Assembly (NCBI GenBank): GCA_020052615.1
Contig: JAGVOT010000038.1
Location: forward strand, 1 to 43,027
Direction: 5' to 3'
DNA from: Nitrospirota bacterium
GTDB lineage: Bacteria > Nitrospirota > UBA9217
Length of the DNA: 43,027 nt
Made by a program: the position numbers and the translations under genes
In this document: piece after piece, positions 12,411 through 23,472 of the stretch
Layout: the number at the start of each line of letters is the position of its first letter
Numbering within the stretch: position 1 is the stretch's first letter
The notes under the pieces: model-generated
Told to the model about the DNA's origin: nothing
The model's database searches: none
What the model saw: only the letters and a program-made list of their open reading frames with translations

Positions 12411-12911
12411 ATGATCGCCAAGATAAAGACCATCCGGGAGCTCCAGCCTCTTCTCACTATCCTTCGGGCGGCAGGCAGGAAGATCGTCTTCACGAACGGC
12501 TGTTTCGACATCATCCATACCGGCCATACCCGCTACCTTGCCATCGCTCGTTCCTTCGGCGATATCCTGGTCGTCGCCGTGAACAGCGACTCATCCGTCC
12601 GCACGATCAAGGGCGAGAAGCGGCCCATCAGCTCCCAGGCCGAACGCGCCGAAACCCTTGCCGCGCTCGAATCGGTCGATTTCGTCACCATCTTCGACGA
12701 GCCGGACCCGCATCGGGTGATCTCCGCGCTGCAGCCGGACGTGCTGGTAAAGGGCGGCGACTGGCCGATCGAGAAGATCATCGGGAGGGACGTGGTCGAA
12801 GCGCGCGGCGGGAAGGTCGTGAACGTGCCCTACGTTGAGGGTGCTTCTACAACGGGGATCATTGAGAGGATCGTAAGGATATACGGCGAAGGTGGGAAGG
12901 TGGGAGGTTGA
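12411..12911 (+). CDS. rfaE2: D-glycero-beta-D-manno-heptose 1-P adenylyltransferase
   Basis: Encodes 166 aa, matching the C-terminal adenylyltransferase half of HldE as a stand-alone protein. The nucleotidyltransferase motif is TNGCFD (28-33) and HTGH (36-39); the late VKGGDW and ASTTGIIERI segments are also typical. It forms ADP-heptose for the LPS inner core. The last seven residues (GEGGKVGG tail) are encoded by the left arm of the inverted repeat at 12888, so the gene's natural end appears altered by that insertion. Confidence 0.92.
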   Translation: MIAKIKTIRELQPLLTILRAAGRKIVFTNGCFDIIHTGHTRYLAIARSFGDILVVAVNSDSSVRTIKGEKRPISSQAERAETLAALESVDFVTIFDEPDPHRVISALQPDVLVKGGDWPIEKIIGRDVVEARGGKVVNVPYVEGASTTGIIERIVRIYGEGGKVGG

Positions 12912-13367
12912 GAAGGTGGGAGATAAGCCCCTCGAACGGAAGAAGTCTCTTCGCCACTTCAGAGACCTTGAAGTATATCAGATGGCTTTTGCAGGCGCGA
13001 TGAACATCTATCAACTCACGAAGAATTTCCCTGCCGATGAAAAATATTCCCTTGTAGACCAGATACGAAGAACATCGCGTTCGGTTTGTTCGAATCTCTC
13101 TGAAGCATGGAGAAAACGCAGATATCCGGCAGCTTTTAAGAACAAACTAACAGACTCGATGCAGGAGGCATCAGAAACTCAATGCTGGCTTGAGTTCAGC
13201 CTATCATGTGACTACATCAGAAAGAATGTATTTGACAAGCTCGATGCTGAATACGAAAGTGTTCAATCAATGCTCAATGTAATGGAAAAAAGCGCTGAAA
13301 AGTTCTGTTATTGACGTTTTTCGTGCTCTTTCCCACCTTCCAACCTTCCCCCCTTCCCACGTTCCCG
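12888..13367. mobile_element. Four-helix-bundle cassette with inverted octad arms
   Basis: The left arm (12888-12922) and the right arm (13327-13367), read inward from each outer end, align as GAAGGTGGGAAGG(T/G)GGGA, GGTTG, GAAGGTGGGA over about 36 bp with few mismatches. Both have an 8-nt period. The only gene between them is a four-helix-bundle protein. The arms also encode the C-terminal tails of the two convergent flanking genes. No transposase is present. A similar empty arm pair is at 15984-16063. Confidence 0.7.
12916..13314 (+). CDS. Four helix bundle protein (S23/IVP-like)
   Basis: Encodes 132 aa from GTG 12916, which has GGGAGG at 12902-12907, inside the repeat arm. GTG 12892 is an alternative. 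Recognisable family features are the first helix HFRDLEVYQMAFAGAMNIY, NFPADEKYSL, the conserved QIRRTSRSVCSNLSEAW and EASETQCWLEFSL. This family (23S rRNA intervening-sequence protein, also related in fold to the Avd protein of diversity-generating retroelements) has no agreed function. Codon use is AT-rich compared with rfaE2 upstream, suggesting transfer. It sits exactly between the inverted arms. Confidence 0.87.
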   Translation: MGDKPLERKKSLRHFRDLEVYQMAFAGAMNIYQLTKNFPADEKYSLVDQIRRTSRSVCSNLSEAWRKRRYPAAFKNKLTDSMQEASETQCWLEFSLSCDYIRKNVFDKLDAEYESVQSMLNVMEKSAEKFCY

Positions 13368-18159: not shown

Positions 18160-18500
18160 CACAGAAAAAGCGGATTAACACCGGATAAGATCGGATAATT
18201 AATAAAGCGAAGCACTCTACTCAAAATGGCAAGAATATTTCTCGCAAAGTTCGCAAAGGTCGCAAGGAAAGTCCAATGCTTTAGCCTTTATTTCATAACA
18301 AAATCCTCGCCTGCTTTTCTTGGTGTTCTTTGCGAACTTTGCGAGAGATGCCTTTAGGTTTTGCTTTTAGTTCCGGCTTGTCCGGGTTAAGGAAGTATCC
18401 GCCGTTATCCGACCCTTATCTATCCGATTTGATCAGTGTCAAATGCAGTTCTTAGGTCAAGTGTTATCATATTTTGAGAACACCGTGTCCATCCGCGTTC
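18160..18500. repeat. Nested short-word repeats; inverted CGCAAAG copy 2
   Basis: The 432-nt gap 18070-18501 has no convincing gene. Its core (18214-18389) is an inverted copy of the CGCAAAG element and closely matches the copy at 22466-22655. It is flanked by an outer inverted pair of CGGAT-word arms (about 18170-18200 and 18395-18432). A further arm (about 18483-18501) with the word GCGGATG starts right after the hisS stop. The structure looks like repeats inserted within repeats. Confidence 0.8.
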
Positions 18501-20540: not shown

Positions 20541-21362
20541 TCACGGCTTTCTTATCAGCTTCCACGGGTGTTTTTTGATATCGTCGGTCATTTCCTTCAG
20601 GTTGTTCGTGATCTCTTTCACGTTCTCCATGGTCGCGTCGATGTTCTTCTTGTTCTCACCCATGATCTTGTCGGTCTTTTCGGTGATCTCCTTGAGGTTC
20701 GCGACGCTGGCATCGACCTTCTTCATAAGCTCCGGCAGGTTCTTCAGCGTCTCGGCGACCTCTTCCTTGCTCGAGGTCATCACCTTGACGTTCTCGGTGA
20801 TCTCGTTGACGTTCTGCACGGCGCCCTTGATGTTCTTCGACAGCGCCGGGTCCCCGACCGTCCGTTCGACGTTCTGCACGATCTTTTCGATGTTCTGGGC
20901 CACGCCCTTCAGCTTGTTCACCACCTCGAGCCCCATGCGGGTGAGGTCCTCCAGCTTGAGGGATTCCTCGCCGTAGAGCGTGGAGCCCGGCTTCAGCAGT
21001 TTGGATTCCGGGGTGCCCCCGCTGAAATCGACATACTTTTTCCCGACCAGTCCCAGGGTCTTGATCGAGACCTTCATGTCTTCCTTGATCACGGCCTCTT
21101 CGAACACGTTCAGGGTCAGCTCCACCTTGCCGCCAAGCTCGGGAACCACCCGCATGTCGCTTACCCGTCCGATCCGGATGCCTGAGATCCGGACGTTCGC
21201 GTGCTTTTCGAGGCCCTCGTTGGACAGGAACAGGACCTTGTATTCCTTTCGCTTCTTGAACATGCCCTGAAGGTCGCTGACGGAAAAGAGCATGACGACG
21301 GCGATGATAAAGGACGTCAGGATAAAGGCCCCGGCGCGTATCTCATTCTTGCGGTATTCCAT
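20541..21362 (-). CDS. mlaD: MlaD-family (MCE domain) lipid-transport protein
   Basis: Encodes 273 aa. An N-terminal membrane anchor (about 10-28) is followed by one MCE domain (about 38-115) with SGIRIGRVSDMRV and KTLGLVGKKYVDFSGG. A long helical region (about 130-265) contains repeated N/E-V-x-E-I-T/N segments, likely a coiled coil. In Mla systems this subunit is periplasmic and binds phospholipid for transfer between outer and inner membrane. It is the third gene after mlaE and mlaF on the same strand. The longer helical tail resembles MCE proteins of tube-forming type. Confidence 0.9.
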   Translation of the reverse strand: MEYRKNEIRAGAFILTSFIIAVVMLFSVSDLQGMFKKRKEYKVLFLSNEGLEKHANVRISGIRIGRVSDMRVVPELGGKVELTLNVFEEAVIKEDMKVSIKTLGLVGKKYVDFSGGTPESKLLKPGSTLYGEESLKLEDLTRMGLEVVNKLKGVAQNIEKIVQNVERTVGDPALSKNIKGAVQNVNEITENVKVMTSSKEEVAETLKNLPELMKKVDASVANLKEITEKTDKIMGENKKNIDATMENVKEITNNLKEMTDDIKKHPWKLIRKP

Positions 21363-21481: not shown

Positions 21482-22267
21482 TTATCCCACCAGCAGGTCT
21501 TCACCGAAATCCTTGCTCGATGCCCGGAAGGCTATGGGGCCTTCGACATTGCCCGTAATGAACTGCTGGACCAGCGCGTCCGGGCTTTGCCTGATCTCCT
21601 GGGGCGTCCCTTCGGCGATGACCTTTCCCCGGTACAGGATGACGATCCTGTCGGCGGTCCGCAGGGCCTCTTCCACGGCATGAGACACGACGATGCAGGA
21701 GATGCCCATAAGGCGGTTCAGGTCTGCAATAAGCTTCGTGATCACGGATCTGCCGATCGGATCGAGGCCCGACGTGGGCTCGTCGAAGAAGATGATCGCC
21801 GGGTCCAGCGCGAGCGCCCGCGCAAGGGCGACGCGTTTCTGCATCCCTCCCGACAGCTGAGAAGGCATGAGTTCCTCAAAGTCCCGAAGACCCACCAGCT
21901 CCAGCTTCATCTTGACCATGATCTTGATGATGTTCTCGTCAAGGGTCGTATGTTCCCGCATGGGCAGTGCGATATTGTCAAAGACGTTCAGGTAATTGAT
22001 GAGGGCCCCCTGCTGGAACAGCATGCCGATCTTCCTGCGATAGGGATCGAGGCCTCGTTCCGTCTGTTTCGTTATGTCCATATCGCCGAAGAGGATCTCG
22101 CCCGCATCAGGCTTGATGGCCCCGATCATCGTCTTGAGAAGCGTGCTTTTCCCGCTCCCGCTCGTCCCGAGAATATAGGTGATCTTCCTGTCCTCAGCGG
22201 TAAAGGACACGTCGTCCAGAACGGCACGGCCGTTATATCGCTTGATGATGTTTCGGATTGAAAACAT
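21482..22267 (-). CDS. mlaF: MlaF-family ABC transporter ATPase
   Basis: Encodes 261 aa. Walker A GTSGSGKST (34-42), signature LSGGMQKRVALARALA, Walker B IIFFDEPTSGLDP and switch His in VVSHAVEEA are all present. The GGMQKR signature is typical of the MlaF/Ttg2A subgroup. It energises phospholipid transport with MlaE and MlaD. It is separated from mlaE by 416 nt filled with a four-helix-bundle remnant and a dispersed repeat, so the operon seems to have been interrupted by insertions. Confidence 0.94.
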   Translation of the reverse strand: MFSIRNIIKRYNGRAVLDDVSFTAEDRKITYILGTSGSGKSTLLKTMIGAIKPDAGEILFGDMDITKQTERGLDPYRRKIGMLFQQGALINYLNVFDNIALPMREHTTLDENIIKIMVKMKLELVGLRDFEELMPSQLSGGMQKRVALARALALDPAIIFFDEPTSGLDPIGRSVITKLIADLNRLMGISCIVVSHAVEEALRTADRIVILYRGKVIAEGTPQEIRQSPDALVQQFITGNVEGPIAFRASSKDFGEDLLVG

Positions 22268-22465
22268 AGTTGAGTAAAAGTAATTAAGTAATAAGTGATT
22301 TGGTAATGAGTTCTTTACATCAAATCAGCAGAAACAGTGATTAAGATTTCGGCTCTTTGTAAGCTTGATAGACGTCTTCAATGACCATCATCACCTTTTC
22401 CCATAGTTTGAGTTTTTTATGAGGTCTTTCGTTCATTGCCTGATCTCACTCACTCAATTACCTAA
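22268..22465. mobile_element. Degenerate four-helix-bundle cassette
   Basis: The left arm (about 22268-22308) has 7-nt units AGTAATT, AAGTAAT, AAGTGAT; the right arm (about 22441-22465) is inverted (GATCTCA, CTCACTC, AATTACC). The space between holds only the start of a four-helix-bundle gene on the minus strand. Architecture matches the intact cassette at 12888-13367, but with a different arm word. It sits between mlaE and mlaF. Confidence 0.6.
22341..22436 (-). pseudogene. Truncated four helix bundle gene, N-terminus only
   Basis: A 31-codon reading frame from ATG 22436 to TAA 22341. It reads MNERPHKKLKLWEK, then VMMVIEDVYQAYKEPKS, which fits the first helix of four-helix-bundle proteins (L-x-W-x-K ... 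VY). The rest of the ~120-aa protein is missing. Enclosed by inverted AGTAATT-type arms. Confidence 0.6.
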
Positions 22466-22655
22466 CCCGGACAAGCCGGAACAAAAAGCAAAACCTAAAG
22501 GCATCTCTCGCAAAGCTCGCAAAGAACGCCAAGAAAAGCAGGCGCGGCTTTGCTAAAGCTTTGGACTTTCTTTGCGACCTTTGCGTGCTCGCCTCGAGGC
22601 GCCTACTTCTGGTTGCGAGAAATATTCTTGCCATTTTGGGTAGATTTTGATTCGT
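22466..22655 (+). repeat. CGCAAAG-type dispersed repeat, copy 3
   Basis: Same orientation as the copy at 1286-1475. Begins CCCGGACAAGCCGGAAC, has CGCAAAGCTCGCAAAG at about 22509-22524, inverted words at 22569-22590, GCGCCTACTTCTGGTTGCGAGA and ends in GATTTTGATTCG. No gene inside. Confidence 0.85.
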
Positions 22656-22683
22656 AACTTACTAATTTGTTATAATAACTGAC

Positions 22684-23472
22684 TTACCCATAGAATGCCG
22701 TTGTCAGGACCGTATCGAGCACAATTATCGTCAAGGTCGACCACACGACCGTCACCATGGTCGCCTTCCCCACTTCCTCGGCGCTGCCCTCGACGATCAG
22801 CCCGCGGTAGCAGCCGATCATGACGATAACAACGGCGTAGAACAGGGATTTCACGATGCCTGATACCACATCGGTGGGCGTAAGGATATCGAGCATCCCC
22901 ACGATGTACACGTTGGGCCCCATGCCGAAGCGGCTTATGCAATACAAAAAGCTGCCGAACAGTGCCATAAAACTGCCGAGGACCGTCAGGGCCGGAAGGG
23001 CGATGAGCATTCCCAGGAACCGCTGCACGACCAGGAACCGCACCGGATTGATCGCCATGGTCTCGATCGCGAGGATCTCCTCGGACACCTTCATGGTGCC
23101 GATCCGCGCGGTGAACGCGGCCCCCATCCGTCCGGCAACGATGATCCCCGTGAGGAGCGGCGCCAGGAACCGGTAGACGGCCACCACGACGACCCCCGGA
23201 AGCGCATTGAGCATGCCGAGATTATCGAGGTTGTAGGCGATCACCACCGTCAGACCGATGCCGATCAGTGCCGAGACCAGCAGGACCAGGGGGATCGAGA
23301 ACGATCCGATCGCGTCCACGTAGGACAGGATGTTCGCCTTTTTCAGCCGTTTCCGGTCTTTGAACAGGAGGGCCGTCTGGAGCACGGTCTCCAGGAGAAG
23401 GGAGAAGATGCTGGAGAGGTCCTGCAGGAAGGTAATGAACATCCTGCCGACATAGCCGAAGAGATTCGTCAT
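22684..23472 (-). CDS. mlaE: MlaE-family ABC transporter permease
   Basis: Encodes 262 aa with about five to six membrane segments. Family features include VDAIGSFSIPLVLL, the conserved VAGRMGAAFTARIGTMKVSEEILAIETMAINPVRFLVVQRF region (about 115-155, split here into its motifs GRMGAA, EEIDA-like EEILAIE and NPVRFLV) and GCYRG. It is the inner-membrane channel of the Mla retrograde phospholipid system. It follows the STAS gene on the same strand with a 127-nt gap. Confidence 0.94.
   Translation of the reverse strand: MTNLFGYVGRMFITFLQDLSSIFSLLLETVLQTALLFKDRKRLKKANILSYVDAIGSFSIPLVLLVSALIGIGLTVVIAYNLDNLGMLNALPGVVVVAVYRFLAPLLTGIIVAGRMGAAFTARIGTMKVSEEILAIETMAINPVRFLVVQRFLGMLIALPALTVLGSFMALFGSFLYCISRFGMGPNVYIVGMLDILTPTDVVSGIVKSLFYAVVIVMIGCYRGLIVEGSAEEVGKATMVTVVWSTLTIIVLDTVLTTAFYG

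Follow-up and report, generated by a model that had tools for sequence, protein, structure and literature searches.

A probable relic of a small mobile four-helix-bundle cassette in the mlaE-mlaF junction of a Nitrospirota bacterium

The intervening sequence of Coxiella 23S rRNA is bounded by 28-bp terminal inverted repeats and carries tandem GACAGAT heptamers, variable in number, ahead of its S23p ORF (PMC4990558). It is cleaved by RNase III in vitro and one strain has a 176-bp deletion in the ORF; earlier suggestions that rRNA intervening sequences were once mobile are repeated in the same report (PMC4990558). Tandem words of similar length have been described from other genomes, including GGGAATC heptads, often in inverted pairs, in Xanthomonas, GGGGAYT in Nostoc (PMC4692102) and paired hepta/octanucleotide sites in Geobacter metallireducens (PMC2700814).

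We analysed a 43,027-nucleotide stretch of DNA from a Nitrospirota bacterium (the window; contig JAGVOT010000038.1 of assembly GCA_020052615.1, genome G000 below) together with related genomes and plasmids. The region between mlaE and mlaF within this window is probably the relic of a small mobile cassette in which inverted arms of tandem words surround a single ORF of the PF05635/TIGR02436 four-helix-bundle family. The protein family is already known under both of these names, and it is the shared cassette class rather than the remnant that is the interesting part.

The mlaE-mlaF junction and its 31-codon remnant

The mlaE-mlaF gap of the window is 416 bp long. Its features, its host genes and the intact cassette used for comparison are as follows:
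20541-21362: mlaD, next after the mlaF-type ATPase gene
21482..22267, minus strand: mlaF-type ABC ATPase gene, downstream host gene (PF00005, E=1.5e-31)
22268..22310, minus strand: downstream arm (operon sense), degenerate octads, reverse complement AGTTGAGTAAAAGTAATTAAGTAATAAGTGATTTGGTAATGAG
22341..22436, minus strand: remnant of a PF05635/TIGR02436 four-helix-bundle ORF, 31 codons, start of the N-terminal helix kept, most of the ORF lost
22437..22466, minus strand: upstream arm, inner piece, GTTAGGTAATTGAGTGAGTGAGATCAGGCA in operon sense
22463..22668, no strand assigned: MITE-like palindromic dispersed element of ~205 bp, inverted CGCAAAG words, no ORF, boundaries approximate
22669..22683, minus strand: upstream arm, probable outer piece, adjoining the mlaE stop codon; short and so weak
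22684..23472, minus strand: mlaE, upstream host gene (PF02405 MlaE, E=4e-60)
12888..13364, plus strand: intact comparison cassette of the same class, ORF in frame 12892-13314, PF05635 106.8 bits
12888-12921 and 13331-13364: arms of the 12.9 kb cassette, GGTGGGAA octads, arm score 46-47, period 8

Read in operon sense on the minus strand, the gap runs from some 15 bp following the mlaE stop codon, through the dispersed element, an arm piece and the 31-codon ORF to an AT-rich downstream arm that runs up to the mlaF start. Translation of the remnant (MNERPHKKLKLWEKVMMVIEDVYQAYKEPKS) and the PF02405, PF00005 and MlaD neighbours confirmed the original prediction of a 31-codon ORF at 22436-22341 on the minus strand between mlaE and mlaF. 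The interval 22268-22465, in which that prediction had placed a decayed cassette, does hold a cassette remnant, but the splitting of its left arm by the dispersed element had been missed.

Pfam and NCBIfam gave no match to the 31-codon remnant, which thus falls below the curated PF05635/TIGR02436 cut-off. A family profile was made of 110 cassette-family proteins, from which the window's intact cassette and the ortholog in a related genome, G010, were left out. Among 1,101 six-frame pieces of the window this profile ranked the 12.9 kb cassette first (5.8e-37) and the remnant second (E=0.0018), with the background beginning at E=2.5, so that the profile check suggested for the remnant came out negative with the curated models and positive with the custom one. 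When 14 family genomes were searched, the remnant showed 67% identity over 24 residues to the N-terminus of the G010 ORF (E=1.4e-7). The latter is a near-complete PF05635 ORF interrupted by a single in-frame TAG (121.6 bits against a cut-off of 33.8) directly upstream of mlaF, at the same mlaE-mlaF junction as the window remnant, and the start of the G010 cassette adjoins mlaE, on its downstream side, at the end of a separate contig of the same genome. Aligning the mlaE-mlaF gaps of relatives, proposed as a way to find intact versions, thus yielded one that is near-complete save for a single stop. The four-helix-like start ascribed to the remnant is borne out by the leave-out profile and the G010 match, and the remnant is evidently a relic of the four-helix family.

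Solved PF05635 relatives (2gsc and 2rld) are pentameric four-helix bundles, and the intact 12.9 kb protein matches both structures by sequence (2rld E=1.9e-8, 2gsc E=3.1e-6). PADLOC defence models gave no match for this protein.

The inverted arms had been predicted to consist of AGTAATT-type heptads. In formal alignment against dinucleotide shuffles the window arms taken alone were marginally inverted (p 0.04-0.11), while those at the same site were clearly so in G010 (p<0.0005) and G003 (p=0.0025); the inverted pair therefore stands mainly through these two genomes, and the window arms appear convincing only by way of the same site there. The heptad did not stand, since a lag of 8 is best both in G010 (0.67), the arms of which are GAGATTGA-type octads, and in G000 (0.49, p=0.06). 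The downstream arm of the window resembles that of G010 (p=0.027), its left arm is similar to the corresponding arm in G010 (p=0.002) and in G001 (p<0.0005), and the arm pieces of G000, G001, G003 and G010 are mutually alike (p 0.002 to <0.0005). The GTTAG end of the inner upstream-arm piece overlaps the end of the dispersed element, and a visual alignment pairs the outer piece (22669..22683) with the beginning of the G001 gap, CAGTTATTA. As predicted, the arm word at the mla site differs from the GGTGGGAA octads at 12.9 kb, the two words being unrelated.

Using the gap sequence as query we found 65 matching stretches in G000, nearly all of them to the half made up by the dispersed element, 13 aligned copies of which share the ends CCTAACCCGGACAAGCCGG and TTACTAA. 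Words of 8-9 nt in inverted orientation flank the short ORF-less core of the element, and copies are present in the window at 22463-22668, 18216-18389 and 1280-1473. It is separate from the cassette, having inserted in the upstream arm, and is independent of the main finding. It may be an arms-only relative of the cassettes or an unrelated repeat; because no CGCAAAG arms flank any fetched four-helix ORF, save for a single doublet in L056, it cannot yet be called an arms-only cassette derivative.

In five family genomes (G008, G009, G011, G012 and G013) mlaE and mlaF are spaced 6-12 bp apart, and the ancestral junction was therefore probably tight. Elsewhere the site is found in various states of decay, with the near-complete ORF and its one stop in G010, an 89-bp gap of inverted arms with no ORF in G003, an arm piece like that of the window alongside a different CGCAAAG element in G001 (same genus as the window genome), and 31 codons plus an inserted element in the window. 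In this Nitrospirota family several genera thus evidently once had a cassette at the mlaE-mlaF junction, and the window copy itself is the ordinary decay of a cassette. The simplest reading would be a single arm-word lineage at the mla site, the copies of which decayed independently and afterwards took in other repeats. Occupied sites are not all grouped with support in the poorly resolved mla gene tree, and more than one insertion at the junction is possible; the relatives at this site are too diverged for a target-site duplication to be read there. The gaps of G001 (L030), G004 (L031) and G005 (L032) hold different repeat-like sequences, and the junction looks like an insertion hot spot.

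Arm architecture, arm words and mobility of the cassette class

Arms were scored by comparing the upstream arm with the reverse complement of the downstream arm. For 58 family-genome cassettes own pairs had a median score of 33.5, compared with 16 when pairs were swapped and 17 in direct orientation, and for 76 loci of many phyla own pairs scored 36 against 18 when swapped. A score of at least 32 was reached by 89 of the 129 pooled cassettes and by 3 of 292 virtual genes placed as controls elsewhere within the same loci (Mann-Whitney p about 2e-45). The contig scan was made by alignment of four close sequences, and its 80 loci are skewed toward one section of the family. Among the 89 strong cassettes the upstream arm has its best period at 7 in 62 and at 8 in 24 (86/89, 97%), and both arms have the same period in 83. 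Inverted tandem-word arms around a four-helix ORF are a general architecture across many phyla, and the occurrence of different arm words within the same architecture, anticipated by the original prediction, is the rule across the 129 cassettes.

Decay of the ORF is common among the cassettes. Inside operons they lie mostly in the sense direction, with both flanking genes in sense orientation in 53 cases and both antisense in 6, while 14 cassettes lie between convergent and 8 between divergent genes. A conserved-motif scan for 23S rRNA around the fetched cassettes found nothing convincing beyond one isolated motif in L156, and no relatives were found on phages. On plasmid pANA02 of Anabaena sp. 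90 (L203) a type I-D cas operon contains a GACAGGT-arm four-helix cassette, flanked by cas6 and cas4, which fits the 23S_rRNA_IVP genes noted earlier in cas loci (PMC3936711).

It had also been argued that the exact arm sequence does not matter. In that form the argument finds no support, as period and word both track the protein clade: changes between periods 7 and 8 on the protein tree number 11 against 21.2 when shuffled (minimum 16), and the word distance to the nearest protein neighbour is 0.38 against 0.69 shuffled. Arm words are unrelated between clades, yet they track the protein tree, each lineage retaining its own word. Such an association of word and clade could arise by shared descent without recognition. 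Within the ERTKxFA clade AGTGCGG words occur at two different loci, one next to a DinB-like gene and the other between kinase-like and response-regulator-like genes (names read from the flanks).

Two further observations concern this word. One AGTGCGG protein clade is present at two unrelated loci in different genomes (L112, L101 and L096 as against L095, L100 and L103), and ATTGCGG is found in both arms of G001 where G000 has AGTGCGG, as if both had changed together.

Cyanobacterial plasmids offer occupied and empty versions of the same sites. Plasmid C of Trichormus variabilis carries a cassette with CAGAAGT/CAGGAGT arms at site A, and Nostoc linckia and Fremyella plasmids of about 98% identity have this site without exactly the arms and ORF; a possible 5-bp target duplication, GTAAT, is seen at site A. 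At three further sites, nrdB-nrdA among them, plasmids with and without the unit are about 85-92% identical; the Nostoc edaphicum cassette at nrdB-nrdA has GGGAGTA arms. The target duplication is ambiguous at site C. In a Nostoc sp. C052 plasmid (L206) site A holds a decayed copy, with a shortened ORF and no right arm, which parallels the fate of the window copy. In plasmid pNPM1 of Nostoc N6 the cassette ORF is interrupted by an ORF-less 181-bp element with the same CAGAAGT/CAGGAGT arm words, which has no clear target duplication, ends beside a conserved GATAA-like sequence and matches 98 places across 43 cyanobacterial plasmid records. Because the empty sites are without exactly the arms and ORF these behave as a unit, and such comparisons show that arms and ORF moved together and that arms without an ORF spread too. 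Insertion as a unit and the ORF-less elements with the same arms together indicate that the arms are the ends of the unit and that the window copy is a relic.

The nested 181-bp element lies at 816-1007 of L211 and has a conserved 3' end, CTGTTTGATAA. Nostocales plasmid cassettes use words of the heptanucleotide-repeat type as arms, and one small operon found on different plasmids of related Nostoc strains (L210; L201/L211) has two distinct four-helix cassettes at adjacent junctions, depending on the plasmid.

Proposed mechanism and alternative explanations

We propose that the arms act as cis-acting ends, that the pentameric four-helix protein would recognise the arm word of its own cassette, as DNA or as RNA, and that the cutting and joining enzyme may come in trans from the host or a different element. 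The cassettes encode no recombinase or reverse transcriptase, only the four-helix protein. In RNA, pairing of the arms may also form a long hairpin open to processing by RNase III, and such processing would allow the cassette to reside within operons and, like known intervening sequences, in 23S rRNA; in predicted RNA folds arm-arm pairing is above 50% in 75 of the 89 strong cassettes.

Two candidate components were rejected or left without support. Selection on a sense RNA stem was rejected, as the wobble asymmetry expected of a maintained sense stem is absent (160 vs 142 in one comparison and 111 vs 113 in another) and arm duplexes are equally stable in sense and antisense (p=0.91). A resident reverse transcriptase as partner is unsupported, RVT_1 being present in 5 of the 14 family genomes and none being found at E<=1e-5 in G000 (97.8% complete).

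Of the explanations that differ from that of a mobile cassette, the one bearing directly on the window is that the 31-codon ORF is there by chance and the gap is merely a landing pad for palindromic repeats. The failure of Pfam and NCBIfam to match the remnant would agree with this, as would the p of only 0.04-0.11 for the window arms and the same gap in G004 and G005, which holds other sequence, apparently other repeat elements. Chance is nevertheless very improbable given that the G010 ORF at the corresponding junction matches at E=1.4e-7, that the remnant ranks second among 1,101 pieces even with that ortholog left out of the profile, and that the window arm resembles the arms of G010 and G001. 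It is also improbable, if less extremely so, that the arms are neutral tandem repeats beside a small resident gene with their inverted match produced by gene conversion or chance. Heptanucleotide repeats are over-represented in many bacterial genomes, for which polymerase slippage has been invoked (PMC4679880, PMC4692102), and the mismatches between arms show no direction; however, inverted arms share word and period in 83/89 cassettes while high scores are found at 3/292 virtual genes, and words are common to a protein clade at different sites. The neutral reading is disfavoured above all because of the empty sites, the whole unit being absent at site A in relatives of about 98% identity.

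As a third alternative, the cassette might be a unit at the RNA level only, an RNase III hairpin that separates or tunes the flanking mRNAs, with mobility incidental. The sense bias of 53 to 6, the long arm-arm RNA stem in 75/89 and the finding that RNase III cleaves the Coxiella insert in vitro (PMC4990558) all favour such a role, but differences between arms show no G-U bias, the sense strand is without the stability advantage that a maintained stem should have, 14 cassettes lie between convergent and 8 between divergent genes, and the frequent decay or loss of the ORF speaks against a conserved host function; we regard this as the least unlikely of the alternatives, though still unlikely. 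Somewhat less likely again is that a Y1 REP-associated tyrosine transposase (RAYT) moves cassettes and palindromic elements in trans with the arms as its hairpin substrate. Every one of the 14 family genomes encodes PF01797 (Y1) proteins, many of them about 300 aa long, although their presence says little as Y1 proteins are common in many bacteria. The nested 181-bp element, without clear duplication and ending beside a GATAA-like sequence, would suit a transposase of this kind, while the possible 5-bp duplication at site A does not fit, and REP elements have short local hairpins rather than long-range tandem-word arms. A mobile cassette with its enzyme supplied in trans thus remains our preferred reading of the region.

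Comparison with described elements

We tentatively consider, at somewhat less than even odds, that PF05635 cassettes, 23S rRNA intervening sequences and many orphan heptanucleotide repeats form one mobile class, in which the arms would be read by a pentameric four-helix protein, word specificity would diverge with that protein, no recombinase would be encoded and arms-only families would spread in trans. Shared anatomy and protein-specific words would tie together the S23p/IVP proteins, the origin of the 23S intervening sequences and the heptanucleotide repeats of cyanobacteria, Xanthomonas and Geobacter. A mobile-cassette anatomy would also explain PF05635 genes inside cas loci and other operons, and the shared anatomy makes a direct test possible, namely binding of a protein to its own word as DNA or RNA.

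Avd of the diversity-generating retroelements has a related four-helix pentamer fold, and the 12.9 kb protein matches the bAvd and Avd models weakly (E about 0.001-0.002). The cassettes differ from these retroelements in that no reverse transcriptase or template/variable repeat was identified nearby, RVT_1 being absent from G000. MITEs and REPIN/RAYT systems are likewise short non-autonomous mobile repeats with inverted ends that are moved in trans; cassette arms differ from both in being long arrays of tandem words, with different words in different families, and in accompanying a four-helix-bundle protein rather than a transposase. The orphan repeats, including cyanobacterial STRR, Xanthomonas GGGAATC and those of Geobacter metallireducens, share with the cassettes their tandem 7-/8-nt words, intergenic location and frequent inverted pairs (PMC4692102, PMC2700814), but reports of them link the repeats neither to a four-helix ORF nor to insertion as a unit. 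In the open-access literature searched we found no report linking such arms to the four-helix ORF, or to intervening sequences or heptad repeats.

The 23S rRNA intervening sequences with an S23p ORF (Leptospira, Coxiella and others) have an ORF of the same PF05635 family within terminal inverted repeats, an arrangement also found in 89/129 of the class and at the G010 site, and marginally so in the window alone. The Coxiella intervening sequence further resembles the cassettes in its tandem heptamers upstream of the ORF and in having strains with a decayed ORF (PMC4990558). Unlike intervening sequences, the window copy lies between mlaE and mlaF, outside any 23S rRNA gene, the 129 cassettes are mostly in intergenic junctions of protein operons rather than in helix 25 or 45 of 23S rRNA, and they use many words with both 7- and 8-nt periods. 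By this analogy the class seems to include the 23S rRNA intervening sequences.
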